Shown here piece by piece: positions 2,135-23,811 of a stretch of DNA of 36,493 bases. The position numbers and the translations under genes were made by a program. This stretch comes from Candidatus Pacearchaeota archaeon. GTDB lineage: Archaea; Nanobdellota; Nanobdellia; Pacearchaeales; GW2011-AR1. The notes under the pieces were generated by a model. The model was given only the letters and a program-made list of their open reading frames with translations. It was not told where the DNA came from and did no database searches. Each line of letters begins with the position of its first letter. The stretch's first letter is position 1. Where the stretch lies: positions 1 to 36,493 of the forward strand of contig JAGLQO010000026.1 in assembly GCA_023136775.1 (NCBI GenBank). Direction: 5' to 3'.

Positions 2135-2608
2135 CTACCACTTTTTAACACTCTTAGCATATTCTTTTACTTCTTTTGCAGACATATAACACTCCTTGTA
2201 TTTTTCAGGATGACCATATTTATTCTTAAACTCATATAGTCCCTTTGCATAACCTCTATCTATAGCAATTTTATCCGCTACATTTTCTTCTATCGTCCTT
2301 GCTCCCCTAAAAGTCAAATATCTAAAACCTCTCCAAGTATACCCAAAAAAACCATAACTCTTAAAACCAACAATATGCCCAAGTTCGTGAGCCAAAACTG
2401 ATTCTATTATCTCTTCCGAATAATCTCTCATTTTCTTACTTATTTTTAAAATTGAAAATAAAAAAACATATGTAACTGCTGCTGAAAAATATTTACTAAC
2501 CCATTTACTCGCCTCAGAAATAAAAATTTTATTTTTCTTTAATTCAGGAAAACTTTTTCTGACTAATTCATCAACAATTTTCTGATAGTTTTTTTTATTT
2601 TCTACCAT
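2135..2608 (-). CDS. Small HExxH putative zinc metalloprotease (paralog of upstream gene)
   Basis: SVLAHELGHIVGFKSYGFFGY; C-terminal AKEVKEYAKSVKKW shared with the neighbouring ORF. Confidence 0.6.
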   Translation of the reverse strand: MVENKKNYQKIVDELVRKSFPELKKNKIFISEASKWVSKYFSAAVTYVFLFSILKISKKMRDYSEEIIESVLAHELGHIVGFKSYGFFGYTWRGFRYLTFRGARTIEENVADKIAIDRGYAKGLYEFKNKYGHPEKYKECYMSAKEVKEYAKSVKKW

Positions 2609-3063
2609 TTCCCAATTTCCTTCGCATAAAGCTTGATTTCCTCATGAGACATAAATGTTTTATTCTTACACTTTGGATAAAGTTTTTCAAGTCGAATAGA
2701 AGAAAGAACTAAATATTTTGCATAACCCTTTTCTATAGCTAATTTATCCACCCTGTCTTCTTCATCTTTTCTTATCGGAGGATAAAACCAATAAATAAAG
2801 AAAAGAAAAAAATTCTTAAAAAAACCATACTTTCTACAAAATTCTGCATGACAAAGCTCATGAACCAAAATTCCTCGAATCTCATCAATTAGAAATTTTC
2901 TGCATAATTTATTAATTCCAACCCTATTGGTAATCGGCAAATAAATACCAAAAAGTTTCGAGAACTTCAATTCAAACACTTTTGGAATATTTTTTTCCAA
3001 TTCAGGGAAACTTTCCCTAACTAACTCATTAACAATTTTCTTATATTTTTGTTTATAATTCAT
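2602..3063 (-). CDS. Small HExxH putative zinc metalloprotease (tandem paralog)
   Basis: Start at internal ATG (MNYKQKYKKIV); GILVHELCHAEFCRKYGFF; C-term HEEIKLYAKEIGKW. Confidence 0.6.
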   Translation of the reverse strand: MNYKQKYKKIVNELVRESFPELEKNIPKVFELKFSKLFGIYLPITNRVGINKLCRKFLIDEIRGILVHELCHAEFCRKYGFFKNFFLFFIYWFYPPIRKDEEDRVDKLAIEKGYAKYLVLSSIRLEKLYPKCKNKTFMSHEEIKLYAKEIGKW

Positions 3064-3134
3064 AAAATATCTAAGATTATTAAATTTAAAAATCTTCACA
3101 TAAACTATAAATACTAAACTGTATTTTCTACAAT

Positions 3135-4178
3135 ATGGTCGCGGACAAAGAGAAAACATTCTTAGATTTTATAAAATTAGTCTCACCAGGAACTTCCCTT
3201 AGAACCGTAATTGATGATTTAGTTAGATCTGGACTTGGGGCGTTAATAGTATTTGACACAAAAGATTTTCAACAAAAAAACTTAAGCGAAGGAGGATTTA
3301 GAATCAATTGTAGATTTACAGCCCAAAAACTTTTCGAGCTTTGTAAAATGGATGGAGCAATTGTTGTTTCTAATGATCTTAAAAGAATTTTACATGCAAA
3401 TATGTTAATGATTCCAGATAGCTCCGTTCCCTCAATTGAAACTGGAACCAGACATAAAGCCAGTGAAAGAATAGCGAAACAAGCTCATACATTTGTAATA
3501 GCAGTATCTGAACGAAGGAAAAAAACAACCCTTTATTACGGATCTTCTAGATATTATCTAAAAACAACTGACGAAATAATTAGAACAATAAGCCCAACTC
3601 TGCAAGTTTTAGAAAAACAAAAAGAAACATTAACAGAACATGTGAACAACTTGAATATTTTGGAAATGTCTGATTTAGTTTCGGTTGGTGATGTATGTAA
3701 AGTAATTCAAAGAGCAGAAATGATTTTAAAAATTTCTGAATCCATTAAAAGAAGTTTCACCGAACTTGGAAAAGAAGGAAATATTATGCATATGAGGTAC
3801 AGAGAACTTCTTCGTGGAGTAGAGAAAATTGAAACTGAAGTTTTAAGAGACTATTCTATCATCCCAATTAAAAGATCAAAAACTCTTCTTTCAAATTTGA
3901 CTTTCGATAACTTGTTAGATAAAGATGCAATTGCAAGATTCATTTTCGAAAAACCGCTAGAAGAAAGTATAAGTCCAAGGGGATATAGATTTTTATCTCA
4001 TTTGACACTTTCAATGAAAGAAATTTCTTTAACGGTTAAATCACTTGGAAACTTAGAAAATATTTTGAAAGCAGATCCCGTAGATTTAGAATTAATTCTA
4101 AAAAACAGAGCAAGTATCATTTGCGAAGAAATTAGAAATTTGCGAGAACAAGTTTTAAGTGGGAAGGTAATTTGCTAA
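3135..4178 (+). CDS. disA: DisA-type diadenylate cyclase (DAC domain, linker, degenerate HhH C-terminus)
   Basis: FLDFIKLVSPGTSLRTVIDDLVRSGLGALIVF, KMDGAIVVS (DGA), ETGTRHKASERIAKQ (RHR-like), ISERRKKTTLYYG, SPRGYRFLSHLTLSMKEISLTVKSLGNL; matches bacterial DisA along its length. Confidence 0.9.
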   Translation: MVADKEKTFLDFIKLVSPGTSLRTVIDDLVRSGLGALIVFDTKDFQQKNLSEGGFRINCRFTAQKLFELCKMDGAIVVSNDLKRILHANMLMIPDSSVPSIETGTRHKASERIAKQAHTFVIAVSERRKKTTLYYGSSRYYLKTTDEIIRTISPTLQVLEKQKETLTEHVNNLNILEMSDLVSVGDVCKVIQRAEMILKISESIKRSFTELGKEGNIMHMRYRELLRGVEKIETEVLRDYSIIPIKRSKTLLSNLTFDNLLDKDAIARFIFEKPLEESISPRGYRFLSHLTLSMKEISLTVKSLGNLENILKADPVDLELILKNRASIICEEIRNLREQVLSGKVIC

Positions 4179-5209
4179 TGTTAAACAAAAAAGAATTAGA
4201 TGAAATAAAAGAAAATTTAGAAATGTCTCAAAATCCATTATTCTTCTTCGATAATGATGTCGATGGACTCTGTTCATTTTTAATTTTAAGACGTTCAATC
4301 GGAAGAGGAAGGGGGGTTGCAATTAAATCTTTCCCAGATCTAAAAGAACAGTATACCAGAAAAGTTGACGAATTAAATCCAGATGCAGTTTTCATTTTAG
4401 ACAAAGCAGAAGTGAGCAAAGAATTCGTAGACGCGGTTGAGATGAAAGGAATTCCAATAACTTGGATTGATCATCACGAATCAAAAACAAAAAAAGCTGT
4501 AATTGAAAAAACATCTTATTACAATTCAATGCCAACAGCAGAACCAGTAACTTACATTGCACAAAAAGTTTTCAACCGACAAGAAAATTTATGGTTAGCA
4601 ACAATTGGCTGTATCAGCGACGTATATATGCCAGATTTTGCAAAAAAATTCGAAGAAAAACATCCAGAATTATTTAATTCAAAATTATCCGCGTTTGACG
4701 CCCTGCATGGAACTACAGTTGGGAAAGTTGCAAAAATGTTAAACTTCGGATTAATGGATACTATAACAAACGTCGTCAAATTAGTAAAATATTTATTTAA
4801 AGCTACAGATATTTATTCAGTAATTGAAGAAAATCAAAATACAAAGCAATTCCACAAACGAGCAAAAGAACTAAACGAATTTTTTAACAAGCAAATGGAA
4901 AAAGCAGAAGAATGTTTCGATAAAAATTCACCAGTATTATTTTTTAGCTATTCTGGAAACACTTCAATGTCTTCAGAAATCGCGAACAAACTTTTCTACA
5001 ACCACAAAGATAAGTTAATCGTCGTCGCTTTCAAAAAACCAGACAAAACAAACATTTCAATCAGGGGTAAAGATGCATTAAAAATAACATACAAAGCAAT
5101 TGAAGGAATTGAAGGAGCTACAGGTGGAGGACACGTTGAAGCGACAGGCGCAATGGTGCCAATCGACGACTTTGAAAAATTCAAAGAAAATATAATGGCG
5201 TATTTTTAG
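4178..5209 (+). CDS. DHH/DHHA1-family phosphoesterase
   Basis: FFDNDVDGLCS, ITWIDHHESK (DHH), C-term ATGGGHVEATGAMV (DHHA1 GGGH); TAATG overlap with disA. Confidence 0.9.
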   Translation: MLNKKELDEIKENLEMSQNPLFFFDNDVDGLCSFLILRRSIGRGRGVAIKSFPDLKEQYTRKVDELNPDAVFILDKAEVSKEFVDAVEMKGIPITWIDHHESKTKKAVIEKTSYYNSMPTAEPVTYIAQKVFNRQENLWLATIGCISDVYMPDFAKKFEEKHPELFNSKLSAFDALHGTTVGKVAKMLNFGLMDTITNVVKLVKYLFKATDIYSVIEENQNTKQFHKRAKELNEFFNKQMEKAEECFDKNSPVLFFSYSGNTSMSSEIANKLFYNHKDKLIVVAFKKPDKTNISIRGKDALKITYKAIEGIEGATGGGHVEATGAMVPIDDFEKFKENIMAYF

Positions 5210-5226: not shown

Positions 5227-5952
5227 TTAATAACAAGCTACCTGAGTTATCGGAGCACAACAGTCAAAATATGCTCTACTGCCATCTTTGCAATCATCCC
5301 AATCTTCCATGCCAAGTGTACAAAGAGTACTATATTCACAACAATCTATACCTTCTTCGCTCAACTCATGTCCTTCTGCAGTACAAGTAGTCATAAAAGT
5401 GGTCCGACCTCCACAAGTTGTTGTCTCTGTCCGCATCCAATCTTTATAACTTTTCCAGTCCAATGGACATGTTGTTCTATCGAATACACAAAAAGCATTA
5501 CTAAACCAAGTACTACTAATATCAATGCCACTTTCATAATCTATATCTCCCGTATAATAATTTTCATAATCCACTACCCCATTATAGTCTTTACAATTTG
5601 CATATGTATGATGATTATAGACTAAAGATGTATCAACTTCGTGTTCTTCTGGCCATACATCCCTACATTCGTCATTAAGACATATCTTAGAAACTATAAG
5701 CTTTAATACATTAATTTGATTTAAACCAGATTCCGTACTTTCTCCACATTCTAGTTTACCATTATAAATTTTCAAAATTTGATCATTAGAACAAGTATCA
5801 GGAATCGAAAATTCTCCCAAACTATGCCCCATAATCATAGGATTATTACCACCGAACGCTGTAACACCTACAGAAATAAAAGCTACCACTATAATAACTA
5901 TTATAAAATAGAATGCTTTATTTGATAAGTCAATATTAATTTTTTTTGTCAT
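5227..5952 (-). CDS. Cys-rich single-TM 'GHS' surface protein, paralog 1
   Basis: MTKKINIDLSNKAFYFIIVII..., MGHSLGEFSIPDTCSNDQILKIYNGKLEC, CLNDECRDVWPEE, C-term VACY. Confidence 0.7.
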   Translation of the reverse strand: MTKKINIDLSNKAFYFIIVIIVVAFISVGVTAFGGNNPMIMGHSLGEFSIPDTCSNDQILKIYNGKLECGESTESGLNQINVLKLIVSKICLNDECRDVWPEEHEVDTSLVYNHHTYANCKDYNGVVDYENYYTGDIDYESGIDISSTWFSNAFCVFDRTTCPLDWKSYKDWMRTETTTCGGRTTFMTTCTAEGHELSEEGIDCCEYSTLCTLGMEDWDDCKDGSRAYFDCCAPITQVACY

Positions 5953-5993
5953 TTTGTGTTGTGTATTTTTATTATTTAATTTTAATTTATTTC

Positions 5994-6641
5994 TTAATAG
6001 CAACCTATTTCCTTTATGGGAGCAAAATATCGTTCATATTGATCATCACCAGGATATAGACAATTACAATATTCTTGTCTTGTATTACTAAAATCATGAA
6101 ATTTAGTGTTACATGGCTGAAATGAAGGATCAAAAGGAAAAGGAAGATGTTCTCTACAATCATCTATAGGGATGGTCGTACTCCAATCGAGGAATTGATT
6201 CCAGCCAGTTGGACATGTTGCTCCGTCAAACCTACAAAAGGAGTAAATATCATCTTTGTATATTTCTCCACCCATTTCTGTACAATTTATATCTGTGTGA
6301 TCACTGTAAACTAAAGGAATGTCAACAACATAATCATAAGGCCACCCTTCACTACACCCTTCCTCAAAACATATCTCAGAAACATTAAGCTGAACAACAT
6401 CGACTAATCCCGATGCTAAAGAATCATCATAGTCACATATTAACTCGCCGTTATAAAATCTCAAAATTTGACCATTATAACAATCTTCAGGAGATGCTAT
6501 TTCCCCTAGACTATGTCCCATAACCTCTGGAATATCTTCGGCCAACACACTAATACTAACGGATGCTATAACTCCTACAGAAATAATTATCAATAAGCAA
6601 AATACTTTATTTGATATTGTTATATTTATTTGTTTCTTCAT
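5994..6641 (-). CDS. Cys-rich single-TM 'GHS' surface protein, paralog 2
   Basis: MKKQINITISNKVFCLLII..., MGHSLGEIASPEDCYNGQILRFYNGELIC, CRFDGATCPTGWNQF, C-term IGCY. Confidence 0.7.
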   Translation of the reverse strand: MKKQINITISNKVFCLLIIISVGVIASVSISVLAEDIPEVMGHSLGEIASPEDCYNGQILRFYNGELICDYDDSLASGLVDVVQLNVSEICFEEGCSEGWPYDYVVDIPLVYSDHTDINCTEMGGEIYKDDIYSFCRFDGATCPTGWNQFLDWSTTIPIDDCREHLPFPFDPSFQPCNTKFHDFSNTRQEYCNCLYPGDDQYERYFAPIKEIGCY

Positions 6642-6651
6642 TTTTTATTAT

Positions 6652-7311
6652 TTAATAACAACCCACCTTTGTTACTATTGCGTAAGCAGTTACATCTGTA
6701 CATACATAATTATCATTACTATTTTTTTTAACTTTCTGACCGTCACAACTTTCTATGCCTCTGTTCATGAATACATGACTTCCTGTTCTACAATCATCAT
6801 GGCAATCCTTACCCAAATAATTATCAATAACACCACTTCCTTCTGTTTCACTCCAACTTTCAAACTGAGTCCATCCATATGGACATATTGGTCTCTCAAA
6901 TTTACAAAAGGAATAAATGCTATCTTCGTATACTTCTCCCTCATATCTATCACAATCTATACTTGTATGTTCATTATATACCAAATTGGTTCTTTCAACA
7001 TAATCACGTGGCCATGTTTCTCTACATACCCCATTAAAACATATTTTAGTAGCATTTAATTGCGGCGTATCCAATTGATCTAAAACAAAAGAAGAGCTAT
7101 CTTCACATATTAATTTACCATTATATACCTTTAAAGCTTGATTATTTGAACAATCTGTAGGAATTGAAATAGATTCTAGACTATGTCCCGTATTAACTGG
7201 ATTGCTCCAATCAAAAGCACTGACTCCCACGGAAATAAGAATAGTTGCAAATAAAATTATTATAGAACAAATAATTTTATTCGATAAAGTAATATTAATT
7301 TGTTTCACCAT
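6652..7311 (-). CDS. Cys-rich single-TM 'GHS' surface protein, paralog 3
   Basis: MVKQINITLSNKIICSIII..., TGHSLESISIPTDCSNNQALKVYNGKLIC, CKFERPICPYGWTQF, C-term VGCY. Confidence 0.7.
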   Translation of the reverse strand: MVKQINITLSNKIICSIIILFATILISVGVSAFDWSNPVNTGHSLESISIPTDCSNNQALKVYNGKLICEDSSSFVLDQLDTPQLNATKICFNGVCRETWPRDYVERTNLVYNEHTSIDCDRYEGEVYEDSIYSFCKFERPICPYGWTQFESWSETEGSGVIDNYLGKDCHDDCRTGSHVFMNRGIESCDGQKVKKNSNDNYVCTDVTAYAIVTKVGCY

Positions 7312-7347
7312 CTTATTATGTATTGTTAACGATATATAAATATTTCT

Positions 7348-8034
7348 CTAATAACAACCTACTTCCGTTACTGTTGCACGAAGAGTCGACCAATCACCAT
7401 CTCTACAAGAAGTAAACCATACAGCAGTCCTATAATCACAAGTCTCTATTGCTTTATTGGCAAAACTATGACTCCCCGTTATACAATCATTACATATAAT
7501 AGTCCATCCAGAAACAGAAACAGTATTAGGGATTGTTTTGGTCCATTTGTCATATTGCTTCCATCCTGTTGGGCATACTGCTCCGTCAAATTTACAAATA
7601 TAATATTCTCCCAATTCGTCATCGCTATATAATTCTCCTCCATTAGCGCTATCACATTCTTCTTTTGTATGCTCTAATCCTACTAGCCAATCCTCAGTTC
7701 CTACTGGCCAGCTAGTTCTACAATTATTGGGATCTCCAATACATATCATGTCGGCATAAATTCTATATGCATTAACTTCACCAACATCTATAACTGGATT
7801 AGCATCACAATCCCATCCAGAATTCCCAAATTCATCTTTTACCACTCTTAAAACTTCTCCTTCAAGACAATAAGCTGGAACTTTCATTTCATCTACACTA
7901 TGTCCCATAACCTCTGGATTTCCAGATCCATCTGTAGTATAAGCATAAACACCAGCTATTAAAACAAATATTCCTAAAAATATAATTACATAAAACAATT
8001 TATTCGATAAAGTAATATTAATTTGTTTCACCAT
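7348..8034 (-). CDS. Cys-rich single-TM 'GHS' surface protein, paralog 4
   Basis: MVKQINITLSNKLFYVIIF..., MGHSVDEMKVPAYC, CKFDGAVCPTGWKQY, C-term VGCY. Confidence 0.7.
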   Translation of the reverse strand: MVKQINITLSNKLFYVIIFLGIFVLIAGVYAYTTDGSGNPEVMGHSVDEMKVPAYCLEGEVLRVVKDEFGNSGWDCDANPVIDVGEVNAYRIYADMICIGDPNNCRTSWPVGTEDWLVGLEHTKEECDSANGGELYSDDELGEYYICKFDGAVCPTGWKQYDKWTKTIPNTVSVSGWTIICNDCITGSHSFANKAIETCDYRTAVWFTSCRDGDWSTLRATVTEVGCY

Positions 8035-17510: not shown

Positions 17511-18622
17511 TGAAGAACATTAAAAATTATGTTTTGAATAACTTATTCCTTTCAAAAAGAGTTATTATAGATAAACCTGGTTTCATAATTCATTGTGCTT
17601 CTGCTTTTTATGGATTAAAACAAAGTAAAAAAAGAATAATATACTTCTTTGAAGATGATTTTATCGACCTCCAAAAAAATACTATCAAAGATATAGGAAA
17701 AAAGAAAGCGTCTTTTCTTTATTACAAAATAGGAAAGGATTTTGTTACACGTCATTTAAATTTTTCAAGTTCTAAATCACCTCCTCTTTTTTTAAAATCT
17801 TATTTAATTAAAAGAATTTTTGAATCATTTTCAAGTGCTGGAATGTCAATTGGAGATAATGTTTCTTTTAATGAGAATAACAATTCTATTGTGCTTCACG
17901 GTAAAGATAATATAATTTCTAGAAAAACTAAAGATCTATCCCTCTTTTGCGGAATAGTAAGTGGTGTATTAAGTTATTTTTGTGGTATGAATATTGAAGC
18001 TAAATCCTTAAACAATGAAAAAATTATAGCGAATCAAAATATTAAAAAAAAATATATTTCTAATATTAATAAAAAGATTGATTTAGCAAAGTATAATAAA
18101 TCTAATCTTCCAATAAAAAATAACTCACACAATCCCATATATCCCTCTTTGAAAGATTTAATGAAATTTAATAAAGTTCGACACAAAGAAGGTAAACATT
18201 GGTTTAAAGAACATTTGATTATTCCAATGGAAATAGGTATACCTGAAATTTATGTAAAACATTACGAACAAAATGATTTACTTCATCTCTTAAAACAATC
18301 TTTATTGAAAAGTTCTGAAAAAAGAGCTAAATTTATTTTTGATAGAAAAAGTATTTCTGATGACATAATTAAGCTTAGCAGTATACTATGTGGATTAGGT
18401 TGGGGGAAATTAATTATTAAAATCGATAAGGGGGAAATTTCTTGCCATTTTATTTCTGCTCCAATTACTAGCGGGGACTTCCTTTTTCAGTCTCTTATTT
18501 TGAATGGATATTTAAATTATATACTAAATAGAAAATATTATTTTTCTTCTGTTGAGACTAGTACAACCAAAATTCCTAAAATAAAAATCATATACGAAAT
18601 GAAAGAAAAGGGTCCATTATAA
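17510..18622 (+). CDS. Hypothetical protein coupled to KaiC-like ATPase
   Basis: Intact 370-aa ORF, TAATG overlap with 16815..17510; no family recognised. Confidence 0.6.
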   Translation: MKNIKNYVLNNLFLSKRVIIDKPGFIIHCASAFYGLKQSKKRIIYFFEDDFIDLQKNTIKDIGKKKASFLYYKIGKDFVTRHLNFSSSKSPPLFLKSYLIKRIFESFSSAGMSIGDNVSFNENNNSIVLHGKDNIISRKTKDLSLFCGIVSGVLSYFCGMNIEAKSLNNEKIIANQNIKKKYISNINKKIDLAKYNKSNLPIKNNSHNPIYPSLKDLMKFNKVRHKEGKHWFKEHLIIPMEIGIPEIYVKHYEQNDLLHLLKQSLLKSSEKRAKFIFDRKSISDDIIKLSSILCGLGWGKLIIKIDKGEISCHFISAPITSGDFLFQSLILNGYLNYILNRKYYFSSVETSTTKIPKIKIIYEMKEKGPL

Positions 18623-19709
18623 AAAATTTAAATCTTAATAATATAAATCTTTTTAGTATTTCCTTTTTCCATTTTATCGGGATTTTTTTAGAAACTTCCT
18701 CTGGAAATTTAAATTTTTCTAATTTAATCATTTTTAAAAATATTTCTGGATTTTTTACAAGCATGTAACCTATAGCCAATCTGTCTTTAATATCAATTTT
18801 TCCAGATATAACCTTAAGATATCGGGATAAATATATTCTTTTCCATTCTTTGTCGAATAGTTTTAAATTGTTCTTTTTTATTGCCCTTGCTAACAACTCT
18901 GAAGATTCCAATATGGGTCTGACACCTTCGCCTACTGTTGGTATAACATTTCCCATACTATCTCCTAAAAATGCGAAATTCTTTTTTGTTAATGGCAAGA
19001 TAGGAGTCCCTGGAACCACTACCCTACTTTGTTTAATAAAACTAAGATTATTTAGAACCTTTGAGGAAAATTTCTGTTTAGGATATTTTATGCAATTAAA
19101 ATCTATTTTTTTTGTATAAGTCCAATGTCCAAGAGAAATCTGGTCAGAAGTAACATATATATCTTCTATAAATCCATTATCTTCTGCTAATAAATAAAAA
19201 TAATTTTCTTTTAGAATAGATTTACCTTCGCAAATATTTGTATTTCCTATCCAATAAAATAAAGGATTTTTCCTTTTTATAAATTTATTTAAAAAGGCAT
19301 TATGCCCCGAGCAATCTACTAAGAATTTAAAATGATATTTGTTTTTATTTGTTTCAAGTATATCTCGGAATATTCTTATAGCTTTTTCCTTTTTGAGTAT
19401 TAATGAAGATCGATTTAACAAGCTTGCACAAACTTCCTTATAATCTATTGCAAAAAAGGGTGCATCAACAGTTAAATATACCCCTTTTTTATTACCTATT
19501 TTCATTCCATCAAAAATATGTTTGTAAGGAAGATTATATTTATTTATAGTTTCTGAATATGTTATTCTTGAGCCATACCCTTCATTAAAGGCAATATCTT
19601 CCTTATCAATTATTAACGTTTTTTTTTCTGGACATATTTTATTTAAATGATAAGCCAAACCTACTCCTGCTATCCCCGCACCTATAATAATTACATCGAA
19701 GTGTTCCAT
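18588..19709 (-). CDS. FAD-dependent oxidoreductase of geranylgeranyl-reductase / lycopene-cyclase-like type
   Basis: FDVIIIGAGIAGVGLAYHL (Rossmann), FAFLGDSMGNVIPTVGEGVRPILESSELLA. Confidence 0.75.
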   Translation of the reverse strand: MEHFDVIIIGAGIAGVGLAYHLNKICPEKKTLIIDKEDIAFNEGYGSRITYSETINKYNLPYKHIFDGMKIGNKKGVYLTVDAPFFAIDYKEVCASLLNRSSLILKKEKAIRIFRDILETNKNKYHFKFLVDCSGHNAFLNKFIKRKNPLFYWIGNTNICEGKSILKENYFYLLAEDNGFIEDIYVTSDQISLGHWTYTKKIDFNCIKYPKQKFSSKVLNNLSFIKQSRVVVPGTPILPLTKKNFAFLGDSMGNVIPTVGEGVRPILESSELLARAIKKNNLKLFDKEWKRIYLSRYLKVISGKIDIKDRLAIGYMLVKNPEIFLKMIKLEKFKFPEEVSKKIPIKWKKEILKRFILLRFKFFIMDPFLSFRI

Positions 19710-20644
19710 TTTAACCCCTTGATAATTATTATTAATTGTATAAGTAAAATTCCACTACTAATTATTATAATTGTTAAGTTGGATGTAATACTCCAGATTA
19801 ATATTATCATAGAATTTATTAAATAAAATCTTAAATATATTAATGCTTGTTTTATTTTATTTTTACAAATTTGTCTTATGGTAAAGGACAACAAAATAAA
19901 TGGGAAAAACAAAAGCCAAATTTGTGTTGCATTAAGCACCCCATAAATTATTGAAATTATTAAGAATGAAAAACTCAGAAAAATTGCTGCTGTTAATCTT
20001 GGAGTTTTTATAGAATTAACTAGGGTTTTATATTTTCTTTTTTTATCTTCTTGGATATCTTTTAAATTTGTAGTTGGACCTATTGATATTCCTAAAAGAT
20101 ATGAAGCAAAACAAAGAAAAATAATTAATTCTAATTTTAATCCTACCAAAATAGATGAAATTGTTATTGGAAGAGCAAGATGGGTAATTCCTGCTACCAT
20201 TGCATCTCCCAAGATTATCCTCCTCGCTATTGTATGATAGATTAACCCGAGAACGATCCATAAACATGTTGCGATTAAAATGATTTTATTTGAAAAAGAA
20301 ATAATTAGAGCTGTTGTTAATAGAATTACAATAATTATAGGAAAGTAATTAGGAAGAACATAGTCATTATCACGATAAGCATTATATATACTAAATGCAA
20401 AGTAAATTAATGCTGGCACTGTAAGAAATAAAGCCAAGATTCTTGGAAAATTATTTGCATATGCCGCAGGTATTAAAATTATTGTTAGAACTGTTAGAAC
20501 TCTAGTAGCCCTAGTAGCTTTTAATAAGTTAACAAATTTTTCACCTCTCATATAATGCAAAAGTTTAATTAATTCTAATTTGTTATTACTCAATTTGGAT
20601 AAAAATATAGATATTTTCTTTAAATGAAGTTTTTTGTTATCCAA
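19691..20644 (-). CDS. UbiA-family prenyltransferase
   Basis: Multi-TM; YNAYRDNDY and NLKDIQEDKKRKYKTLV aspartate-rich motifs. Confidence 0.75.
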   Translation of the reverse strand: MDNKKLHLKKISIFLSKLSNNKLELIKLLHYMRGEKFVNLLKATRATRVLTVLTIILIPAAYANNFPRILALFLTVPALIYFAFSIYNAYRDNDYVLPNYFPIIIVILLTTALIISFSNKIILIATCLWIVLGLIYHTIARRIILGDAMVAGITHLALPITISSILVGLKLELIIFLCFASYLLGISIGPTTNLKDIQEDKKRKYKTLVNSIKTPRLTAAIFLSFSFLIISIIYGVLNATQIWLLFFPFILLSFTIRQICKNKIKQALIYLRFYLINSMIILIWSITSNLTIIIISSGILLIQLIIIIKGLKWNTSM

Positions 20645-20687
20645 ATCCAGTAATAAAAAATATAAGAAATTATGATCTAAATATATT

Positions 20688-21149
20688 ATGAGGTGCTTTT
20701 TTCGTATATCCGACTTAACAACTAAAGAATTAACTGAGATTCATGATTTAACTGATGAAATAACTAATTATGTCTTAGAATCTAAAATTAAAAATGGACA
20801 TCTTTTGATTCAACCAATGCATACTACCGTTGGAATTTATTTAAATGAGGGAGAGCCACGACTTATTAAAGATTTTATTTTAGAAATCAATAAACGTATC
20901 CCTATCCGAAGGAAATATTTGCATGATGATATAGATAAAAGAAAAGATTGTCCTCCAGATGAACCAATTAATTGCCATTCGCATTTGAAGGCAGCATTAT
21001 TTTCCAATCCTAGTTTATCATTAATAATTTTTGGTGGAAAATTACAAATGGGAAAATATCAACGTATTTTGATGAGCGAATTTGATGGTCCATGTCCAAG
21101 AAAACACAAAAGCAAAAGGAGGTATGCCATCAGCATAATCGGTGATTAA
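20688..21149 (+). CDS. YjbQ / UPF0047 family protein
   Basis: QPMHTTVGIYLNEGEPRL, NCHSHLKAALFSNPSLSLIIFGGKLQMGKYQRILMSEFDGPCPRKHK. Confidence 0.85.
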   Translation: MRCFFRISDLTTKELTEIHDLTDEITNYVLESKIKNGHLLIQPMHTTVGIYLNEGEPRLIKDFILEINKRIPIRRKYLHDDIDKRKDCPPDEPINCHSHLKAALFSNPSLSLIIFGGKLQMGKYQRILMSEFDGPCPRKHKSKRRYAISIIGD

Positions 21150-21153
21150 AAAA

Positions 21154-22260
21154 ATGAACGGAAATTTAATTTATGATACAACGCTTAGAGATGGAGAACA
21201 AATGCCAGGGGTTGTTTTTTCACGTAATGAAAAAATTAATTTGGCAAAAAAAATAAGTGAATTTGGAGCTACAATAATAGACATAATGCCAGCCGTCAGT
21301 AAAGAGGAATACGAAACTACTAAATATTTAGTAGACTTAAATTTAGATGCAGAAATTTCAGCTTCTACAATGATGAGAAAAAATGCAATTGATCTGGCTT
21401 ATAATTGTGGAGTTAAAAGAGTTTGTATGTTTTCTCCTGTTTCTAAAATCCAAATGGACAAAATGTCCAGCAAAGAAAATTTAAAAAGAGCCATAGAATA
21501 TGTTAATTATGCTAGCGACAAAGGACTAACGGTTGATTTTGCTGGAGTTGATTCTACTCGAGCAGACAAAAAATATTTAATTAATTTTATTAATACATTA
21601 GAAGGACAAATAGATTATTTTTTTGCTTGTGATAGCTTGGGAAAATTAACCCCTAAACAAACTGAAACTTTTGTTTCTATGCTAAAAAATGAAACAAATG
21701 TAAAACTAGGGCTTCATTGTCATAATGATTTTGGACAAGCTGTTGCTAATAGTTTAATTGGTTTGGAAGTTGGTGCAGATATTGTTTCTGGAACTTTTGG
21801 AGGGATAGGAGAAAGAGCAGGAAACGCTGCACTTGAGGAAATTGTAATGGGAATGAGGGAGCAATACGGCACAACTTTACCTATCAAATATGAAATGTTA
21901 AGTGAAATTTGCAAAGATGTTGCAAAATATTCTGGAATTCAACTACAAGAACATAAAGCGATTTCGGGTAAAAATGCATTTATCCATGAATCTGGCGTTC
22001 ATGTAGATGCAATGTTAAAAAACATAAAAAGTTATGAAAATTTTAATCCCACTGAAATTGGCAGAACTCGAAAATTTGTTGCAGGAAAACATTCTGGAGA
22101 AAATATTTTAAGATACTGGTTCGAAGATAAATTTAGCAATGAGGAATATAAAAATATGCTACAACAAATTAAAGATTGGTCAAGAAAATATAAAACGGCT
22201 TTCTGTAAAGACGACGTTTCAAAATTGCTTAAAGGAGAAATTTTATTTAATGGAAATTAA
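21154..22260 (+). CDS. LeuA/NifV/AksA-superfamily Claisen-condensing enzyme without C-terminal LeuA regulatory domain
   Basis: LIYDTTLRDGEQMPGVVFS, LGLHCHNDFGQAVANSL, GTFGGIGERAGNAALEEI, HESGVHVDAMLK; ATG at 21154. Confidence 0.85.
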   Translation: MNGNLIYDTTLRDGEQMPGVVFSRNEKINLAKKISEFGATIIDIMPAVSKEEYETTKYLVDLNLDAEISASTMMRKNAIDLAYNCGVKRVCMFSPVSKIQMDKMSSKENLKRAIEYVNYASDKGLTVDFAGVDSTRADKKYLINFINTLEGQIDYFFACDSLGKLTPKQTETFVSMLKNETNVKLGLHCHNDFGQAVANSLIGLEVGADIVSGTFGGIGERAGNAALEEIVMGMREQYGTTLPIKYEMLSEICKDVAKYSGIQLQEHKAISGKNAFIHESGVHVDAMLKNIKSYENFNPTEIGRTRKFVAGKHSGENILRYWFEDKFSNEEYKNMLQQIKDWSRKYKTAFCKDDVSKLLKGEILFNGN

Positions 22261-23296
22261 AGAAATTTTAAAACAAGAAGTTTTGGAAATAGATAAATTA
22301 ATCGAAAAATCTATTCCAAGAAATTGTAAAGGATGGATAAACAAAACTCTTGGAAATTCAAAATGGGAATATGATGAGAAAGCATGTAATGAATCTATCA
22401 CTAATCCTATCTGGAATTTGCTCGACAGGGGAGGAAAAAGATGGAGACCTTTTTTAATGAAATTTTCGTATTTTGCAACTGGAGGAAAAGAAAACATAAA
22501 TGAATTTTTATCTATTCCAGAAATTATCCATAATGGAACATTAATGATTGACGACATAGAGGACAGTTCAGATATACGTAGAGGAAAAGAATGTATTCAT
22601 AAAATCTATGGGAATGATATCGCTATTAATGCTGGAAATATGATGTATTATTTGCCCACTCTAGTTTTAACAAAAAATAATTCTTTAGACTTAGAAACAA
22701 AAGTCAAAATTTATGAATTAATTAACGAAGAAATGGTGAAATTGCATTTTGGACAAGGAATGGATATTTTTTGGCACAAGGGGAATAAAATTCCAAATGA
22801 AAAACAATATTTACAAATGTGCGCTTTTAAAACTGGGACGCTTAGCAGAATGTCTGCGAAACTAGGAGCAATACTTGCTGGAGCAACTGATTCTCAAATA
22901 GATGCACTCGGAAATTTTGCAGAATCAATTGGTATCGCATTTCAAATTCAAGATGATATTTTAAATATAACACCAAGTAAAAACTGGGGGAAGGATTTCG
23001 GAGACGATATCAACGAAGGAAAAAGAACATTATTAATAATTAAAGCATTAGAGAAAAATTCCGAAAACGACAAAGATGATTTAATCGGTATACTAAATAT
23101 GCAAACAAAAAATAAAGTTTTAATTTCAGAAGCAATTAAAATTATAAAAAAATCCAACGCTATAGAATATTCTTTCAATCTTGCGAAAAAAATAGTAAAC
23201 GATGCATGGGAAAAATTAGAATCAACACTAGAGGAATCAACAGCTAAAAATAAATTAAAACTCTTATCAGATTTTGTGATAAACCGCGACATATGA
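22250..23296 (+). CDS. Polyprenyl (geranylgeranyl/farnesyl) diphosphate synthase
   Basis: DRGGKRWRPFLM, LMIDDIEDSSDIRRG, FQIQDDILNITPSKNWGKDFGDDINEGKRTLL; ATG at 22250 overlaps previous stop. Confidence 0.88.
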   Translation: MEIKEILKQEVLEIDKLIEKSIPRNCKGWINKTLGNSKWEYDEKACNESITNPIWNLLDRGGKRWRPFLMKFSYFATGGKENINEFLSIPEIIHNGTLMIDDIEDSSDIRRGKECIHKIYGNDIAINAGNMMYYLPTLVLTKNNSLDLETKVKIYELINEEMVKLHFGQGMDIFWHKGNKIPNEKQYLQMCAFKTGTLSRMSAKLGAILAGATDSQIDALGNFAESIGIAFQIQDDILNITPSKNWGKDFGDDINEGKRTLLIIKALEKNSENDKDDLIGILNMQTKNKVLISEAIKIIKKSNAIEYSFNLAKKIVNDAWEKLESTLEESTAKNKLKLLSDFVINRDI

Positions 23297-23811
23297 AAGA
23301 TGAATTAATTTTAGTTGACACAGAAGATAATGAAATTGGATTCGAAGAAAAAGAAAAATGTCATGTAAAAAATGGAATACTACACAGAGCATTTTCTATT
23401 TTTATTTTCAACGAGGAAAAAGAACTTCTAATTCAGCAAAGAGGAAAGTACAAAATGCTTTGGCCTCTTTTTTGGAGTAACAGCTGTTGCTCTCATCCAA
23501 GAAAAGGTGAATCAATAGAAAATGCTGCATCTAGAAGAATAGTTGAAGAATGCGGAATCGCATGTGAACTAAAAAGAATTTACAAATTCAAATACTCTAG
23601 CAAATTTGAAGAAGTTGGAAGTGAAAATGAAATTTGCCATGTATTTATAGGAAAGAACAATAACAATCCAATCGTAAACTTAGAAGAAATTGAAAACTGG
23701 AAATGGATAAAAATTCCAGACTTATTAAATGATATATCTAAAAATCCAAATAAATACACTCCATGGTTCAAATTGGAATTAATAGAACTAAAGAAAAGAA
23801 ATTTATTATAA
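23293..23811 (+). CDS. idi: Isopentenyl-diphosphate delta-isomerase, type I (Nudix)
   Basis: ILHRAFSIFIFNEEKELLIQQRGKYKMLWPLFWSNSCCSHPRKGES...AASRRIVEECGI. Confidence 0.93.
   Translation: MKDELILVDTEDNEIGFEEKEKCHVKNGILHRAFSIFIFNEEKELLIQQRGKYKMLWPLFWSNSCCSHPRKGESIENAASRRIVEECGIACELKRIYKFKYSSKFEEVGSENEICHVFIGKNNNNPIVNLEEIENWKWIKIPDLLNDISKNPNKYTPWFKLELIELKKRNLL

Follow-up and report, generated by a model that had tools for sequence, protein, structure and literature searches.

A DisA variant encoded directly upstream of a core DHH/DHHA1 phosphoesterase in an archaeal order

Does an archaeal gene pair that encodes a DisA-type diadenylate cyclase and a DHH/DHHA1 phosphoesterase make and clear c-di-AMP? 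This nucleotide has been shown in an archaeon, via DacZ, and it is established that DisA scans DNA in bacteria. The pair lies on a contig from a Candidatus Pacearchaeota archaeon of the small-genome, symbiont type (JAGLQO010000026.1, assembly GCA_023136775.1). We refer to the whole stretch that was analyzed (36,493 nucleotides, forward strand) as the window, and all coordinates use its numbering. The relevant features are as follows.

3106 to 3111, plus strand: TATA-box-like site (tataaa, within actataaatac), lying 29 bases ahead of the disA ATG
3135 to 4178, plus strand: disA, an open reading frame for a DisA-type diadenylate cyclase of 347 amino acids (NF010009, PF02457, PF10635, PDB 3c1y, and the predicted model)
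Residues ~26 to 136 of the disA product: DAC domain (PF02457)
Residues 142 to 269 of the disA product: DisA linker (PF10635)
Residues ~280 to 341 of the disA product: C-terminal domain, with room for the first HhH hairpin only
3351 to 3359, plus strand: codons for D73-G74-A75, the DGA motif, which is unaltered here as judged from the alignment of 117 DisAs
3450 to 3458, plus strand: codons equivalent to the RHR motif (R106-H107-K108, or RHK), from the same 117-row alignment
4077 to 4157, plus strand: residues 315 to 341, a single straight helix in the model, where the GIG second HhH hairpin stands in bacterial DisA
4178 to 5209, plus strand: DHH/DHHA1 phosphoesterase of the RecJ superfamily, 343 amino acids (PF01368 and PF02272 over their cut-offs; motifs; fold)

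First, the upstream gene does encode a full-length, bacterial-type DisA, as an earlier note on this DNA had claimed. Its product scored 321.9 bits against NCBI's DisA model (NF010009; the cut-off is 201), 98.2 bits against the DisA linker (PF10635; the cut-off is 25), and 79 bits against the DAC domain (PF02457), which is above the cut-off. Its nearest solved chains are bacterial DisAs, and DisA from Thermotoga maritima (3c1y) matches residues 9 to 339 with an E value of 1e-54. An AlphaFold model, for which the input was the window, archaeal, and bacterial sequences, has a mean pLDDT of 94.8; it superposes on the DisAs of Mycobacterium tuberculosis and T. maritima (TM ~0.88), and its fold agrees with that of c-di-AMP-bound DisA. 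The gene is under strong purifying selection (dN of 0.04 versus dS of 1.0 for a pair of close relatives), and its product is the sole DAC protein detected in the source genome. Since their scores lie far above the cut-off of NCBI's model, archaeal proteins of this kind probably carry the name DisA in databases already.

The protein does depart from bacterial DisA at two places, and the first is the catalytic motif. The earlier note had reported DGA and RHR-type motifs. DGA is intact, but the second motif ends in a lysine (K108), so that it reads RHK and not RHR. Across the alignment, DGA is kept in 81 of 85 archaeal rows and in all 32 bacterial rows. Among the archaeal DisAs, 71 have RHK at the second motif, 9 have RHQ, and 3 have RHR, versus RHR in 31 of the 32 bacterial rows. 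If these changes, along with the altered C terminus, were to alter the chemistry, then DisA might make another product or merely bind nucleotides. The split between RHK or RHQ in 80 of 85 archaeal proteins and 1 of 32 bacterial ones is what one would expect, but D73, G74, R106, H107, E102, and S125 are conserved, the third motif residue is basic in most rows, and the modeled fold is that of a c-di-AMP-bound enzyme. As judged from the alignment, RHR to RHK is a conservative, clade-wide change, and we consider a different activity very improbable. DisA from M. tuberculosis loses its activity when RHR is replaced with AAA, and its activity drops strongly when the HhH domain is removed (PMC3328451).

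The second difference lies in that HhH domain. The second hairpin (GxG) is present in just 1 of the 85 archaeal rows (from genome G039, which belongs to a distant family of the order) versus 30 of the 32 bacterial rows. In the window's protein it is missing from the sequence, and the model has one helix in its place, which bears out the earlier note's statement that this hairpin was lost. Although the score and the linker agree with NF010009, the tandem two-hairpin HhH domain is thus not found; because the DisAs of Fusobacterium and Collinsella also lack the second-hairpin motif, we file the window's gene as a DisA variant. Given the loss of the hairpin, the earlier remark that junction sensing may be weakened is reasonable, and it would extend to the whole archaeal clade as well as the window's gene.

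The variant is not peculiar to this contig. The DisA linker was present in 33 of 57 relatives, including 14 of the 16 that belong to the same genus. Phylum-wide, DisA was over the cut-off in 62 of 380 genomes, and nearly all of these belong to the same family and order. The DisA-bearing relatives with names are Candidatus Pacearchaeota and unclassified Nanoarchaeota metagenome-assembled genomes. Because nearly all of these assemblies are incomplete, any one absence carries little weight, and the patterns rest on many genomes. We also considered contamination or mis-binning and rejected it, given the near-constant presence within the genus, the occurrence in several families, and the archaeal genes around disA.

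In a tree of 117 DisAs, a single branch divides the 85 archaeal rows from the 32 bacterial rows (SH-aLRT of 99, by a quick method), and the archaeal group is nested inside none of the sampled bacterial lineages, which were Bacillota, Actinomycetota, Fusobacteriota, and Thermotoga. A tree of DAC domains with small archaeal DACs as the outgroup did not place the root, because the outgroup branch is too long. A search of phages for DisA gave no match. From the distribution, a transfer of disA from bacteria to archaea is likely.

Some of these archaea encode a second DAC protein of ~200 amino acids (loci L194 to L198, L201, and L202, in genomes G016, G023, G021, G026, G008, G043, and G014), which occurs beside DisA in some genomes and alone in others. 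It has a GTRH motif followed by S, A, or I as the third motif residue, and it has a hydrophobic C-terminal stretch. The three proteins tested were not above the cut-off of any NCBI model, and they may represent an undescribed class of DAC. In G016, which carries this small DAC, an in-frame TAA interrupts disA after the DAC domain and before the linker (L034, 5817 to 6944); this reflects either gene decay or an assembly error.

How closely, then, is disA tied to the DHH gene? The two are overlapping genes and not a fusion, which the title of the earlier note had implied. The note was accurate in stating that the second gene begins inside the disA stop: the ATG at 4178 shares one base with the TAA at 4176 to 4178. 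This overlap leaves no room for an intergenic promoter, so the sequence makes a single transcript for disA and DHH likely. Of the 13 close relatives shown, 12 have the TATA-like site at an identical distance, and a spacing of 29 bases would fit a leaderless disA transcript.

The tight linkage is conserved across families. Among 81 archaeal disA loci, a DHH gene is directly downstream (within 222 bases) in 43 and within ~2.4 kb in another 9; it is not in the fetched stretch in 25, and the stretch ends too soon in 4, which leaves 77 assessable loci. In all 52 linked pairs, disA and DHH share a strand, and the gaps are mostly 0 to 60 bases. The pair spans four families (f1, f4, f5, and f8) whose other neighbors differ. 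The earlier note would have been undercut if DisA were widespread in relatives as an orphan: it is widespread, but only the 25 of 77 loci are unlinked, these come mostly from one subclade, and most genomes with an unlinked disA carry a DHH gene elsewhere. Every one of the 33 DisA-containing genomes in the near set has the DHH gene as well, and so do 58 of the 62 from the phylum set. By comparison, none of 71 bacterial disA loci from a genome scan had such a DHH neighbor, and radA adjoins disA in three annotated bacterial loci. An acetate-kinase-like gene precedes disA and DHH in G045 and G039, and it precedes DHH directly in G046 and G051. Because DHH abuts the same upstream gene in several relatives without DisA, disA was gained or lost as an intact unit.

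We also examined a candidate for a natural DisA-DHH fusion (630 amino acids, on Pacearchaeota contig L108). It lacks both the DisA C terminus and DHH motif I, which suggests a deletion or an assembly join. Separately, disA appears on 12 Clostridioides difficile records that are classed as plasmids, of ~97 to 150 kb (L100 and others); in the one record that was opened, radA and a PIN/TRAM gene adjoin disA.

Other parts of the window contain genes of separate interest. Divergent from disA, at 2135 to 3063 on the minus strand, two adjoining small proteins have zinc-metalloprotease-like HELGH or HELCH motifs; the second of them had no match in Pfam. At 5227 to 8034, also on the minus strand, four tandem paralogous genes encode proteins that are rich in cysteines and carry a GHS motif and a hydrophobic segment at the N terminus. 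These are possibly cell-surface proteins; the one that was compared to Pfam had no match. A lipid-synthesis set at 18588 to 23811 comprises an FAD oxidoreductase, a UbiA-like prenyltransferase, an HMGL/homocitrate-synthase-like enzyme, a polyprenyl synthase, and a NUDIX protein that resembles type 1 IPP isomerase.

Next, what is the DHH protein? As the earlier note had found, it has the motifs of the DHH family: besides PF01368 and PF02272, all of the metal-binding motifs are complete (D25/D27/D29, D75, D98-H99-H100, and D148, with GGGH at 316 to 319). The catalytic motifs are invariant in 30 relatives, with the same residues whether or not DisA is present, and selection on the gene is strongly purifying (dN of 0.06 versus dS of 0.9 for a pair of close relatives). 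The likeness to GdpP and NrnA that the earlier note had proposed was not supported. By sequence profile, archaeal RecJ proteins rank first, and the model, which has a mean pLDDT of 88.6 and was built from six sequences only, matches RecJ-Cdc45 and RecJ2 best (E of ~1e-15), followed by a pAp phosphatase (1e-13), with NrnA well below (1e-9).

The earlier note had set against its own reading the outcome that the DHH protein falls among RecJ-type nucleases, and this applies in part, although the genome encodes RecJ-type proteins separately. The protein scored far below the cut-offs of the RecJ and RecJ_archaeal models (43.7 of 396.9 bits and 34.1 of 360 bits; TIGR00644, NF053576, and NF053575 were tested), and it had no match to the GAN model at E of 0.001. 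The genome encodes four other DHH proteins, which are RecJ_archaeal/GAN-like, HAN-like, a bacterial-type RecJ (over the cut-off), and a second short one. Given these low scores and the separate RecJ-, GAN-, and HAN-like proteins, the window's protein belongs to a separate short family. These results also bear on a shared role in DNA repair, with DisA sensing DNA structures and the DHH protein acting as a RecJ-like exonuclease at the same lesions. Such a role would suit the scanning activity of bacterial DisA and the placement of the DHH protein in the RecJ superfamily by sequence and fold. However, the second hairpin is gone from 84 of 85 archaeal DisAs, and the model shows one helix there. 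In addition, RecJ, HAN-like, and RecJ_archaeal/GAN-like proteins are encoded separately in the genome, all of them much longer than the DHH protein, and we view shared repair as unlikely.

The DHH gene is also far more common than disA. It is present in 315 of 380 genomes from the phylum (215 of the 247 high-quality ones), mostly without DisA, and it is retained in most genomes that lack DisA, many of which have no detected DAC of any kind. Therefore, c-di-AMP is not its main substrate across the phylum, and it is not a dedicated partner of DisA. It is older and more general than disA in the phylum; it is a core gene with its own function, and any part in c-di-AMP turnover must be additional to that.

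Is there such an added role? In 2021, the c-di-AMP-degrading enzymes of Haloferax volcanii were called unknown (PMC8646023). We looked for a PgpH-type enzyme and found none, and none of the genome's five DHH proteins matched the NrnA or GdpP models, which leaves the window's kind of DHH protein as the obvious candidate for the hydrolase. On the sensing side, the TrkA_C receptor domain was found in 5 of 57 relatives and is absent from the source genome, the Usp receptor was found in none of 28, and no c-di-AMP riboswitch was found. Thus, for these three types, the source genome has no known c-di-AMP receptor. Within the library that we searched, no paper joins Pacearchaeota with c-di-AMP or DNA integrity scanning with Nanoarchaeota.

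Alternatively, DisA might make c-di-AMP while the DHH protein does no more than housekeeping, as a nanoRNase or pAp phosphatase. The two would then belong to no common pathway: their adjacency would have arisen once, when disA came to lie upstream, and would have persisted because the genes are transcribed together and gene order is lost slowly. This would account for the near-universal presence of the DHH gene without DisA, for catalytic residues that are indifferent to DisA, and for the gene's unchanged position where disA is absent; furthermore, the best length-matched fold similarity is to a short archaeal pAp phosphatase (8a8k). It accounts less well for a pair that has been kept across families, in the same orientation and with small gaps, while most other neighbors changed, or for the rarity of DisA without a DHH gene. 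We regard this alternative as a serious contender, albeit a doubtful one.

Our best reading is that an order-level DisA variant was inserted upstream of a core oligonucleotide phosphoesterase, which was probably recruited to clear c-di-AMP or pApA. Ancestrally, the DHH protein would have been a core enzyme of the phylum that acted on short oligonucleotides or 3'-phosphonucleotides. In the order's ancestor, disA would have been placed directly upstream, leading to co-transcription, and the two genes would now form an operon that is expressed from one TATA promoter. The archaeal DisA would condense two ATP to c-di-AMP; with its second DNA-contacting hairpin lost, it probably does not scan DNA junctions in the way that bacterial DisA does. 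The DHH protein would most likely help to clear c-di-AMP or pApA.

Several observations weaken this reading. The DHH gene is kept mostly without DisA. Also, the DHH pAp phosphatase of Pyrococcus yayanosii cuts neither c-di-AMP nor pApA (PMC8268124), linkage was lost in one DisA subclade, the AAA replacement of RHR abolishes activity in M. tuberculosis, and no known receptor was found. For the full reading, with an active cyclase and a DHH protein that helps in clearing c-di-AMP or pApA, we see the chances as about even. A bolder version is tentative, and we would sooner doubt it than accept it: disA-DHH would be a self-contained archaeal module for c-di-AMP synthesis and breakdown. In it, a core enzyme of the RecJ superfamily would have been recruited as the first phosphodiesterase for c-di-AMP or pApA in archaea, and a DisA freed from junction sensing would act on receptors that are not among the known ones.

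Either way, a gene pair that is common to related archaea gives a concrete handle on how archaea may control c-di-AMP, and these two small proteins make its degradation and sensing in archaea directly testable. The natural series of DisAs, from the one in G039 that keeps the second-hairpin motif to those that have lost it, offers a handle on the role of the DNA-binding domain.

Overall, each protein resembles known systems in part. Bacterial DisA (from Bacillus subtilis, T. maritima, or M. tuberculosis) shares the three-domain order, the DGA motif, the linker, and the fold (TM ~0.88) with the window's DisA, which differs in having RHK instead of RHR, in lacking the second HhH hairpin, and in its separate branch in the tree; the locus differs in having a DHH gene downstream and no radA alongside. 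Archaeal DacZ (from Haloferax; the DacY/CdaZ class) is likewise a DAC-domain protein in an archaeon, but the DacZ model (NF041371) gave the window's DisA just 14.4 bits, compared to a cut-off of 430. According to the DacZ study (PMC6741144), the N-terminal domain of DacZ is of another kind, and its DAC domain branches apart from the other classes in bacteria and archaea. As for the DHH protein, the archaeal RecJ/Cdc45-like nucleases (RecJ2, RecJ-Cdc45, and GAN) share its DHH and DHHA1 domains and motifs and are its nearest neighbors by sequence and fold, but it is ~100 residues shorter, and the genome encodes proteins of that kind separately. GdpP and NrnA share the DHH-DHHA1 architecture, and NrnA is of similar length, but their fold match is clearly weaker, and the window's protein has a RecJ-type motif I (DNDVDG) and no PAS or GGDEF parts. 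The archaeal DHH pAp phosphatases (8a8k and the P. yayanosii enzyme) are, like the window's protein, short DHH-DHHA1 proteins; 8a8k has the top target-normalized TM score among the matches listed (0.67), at ~16% identity.
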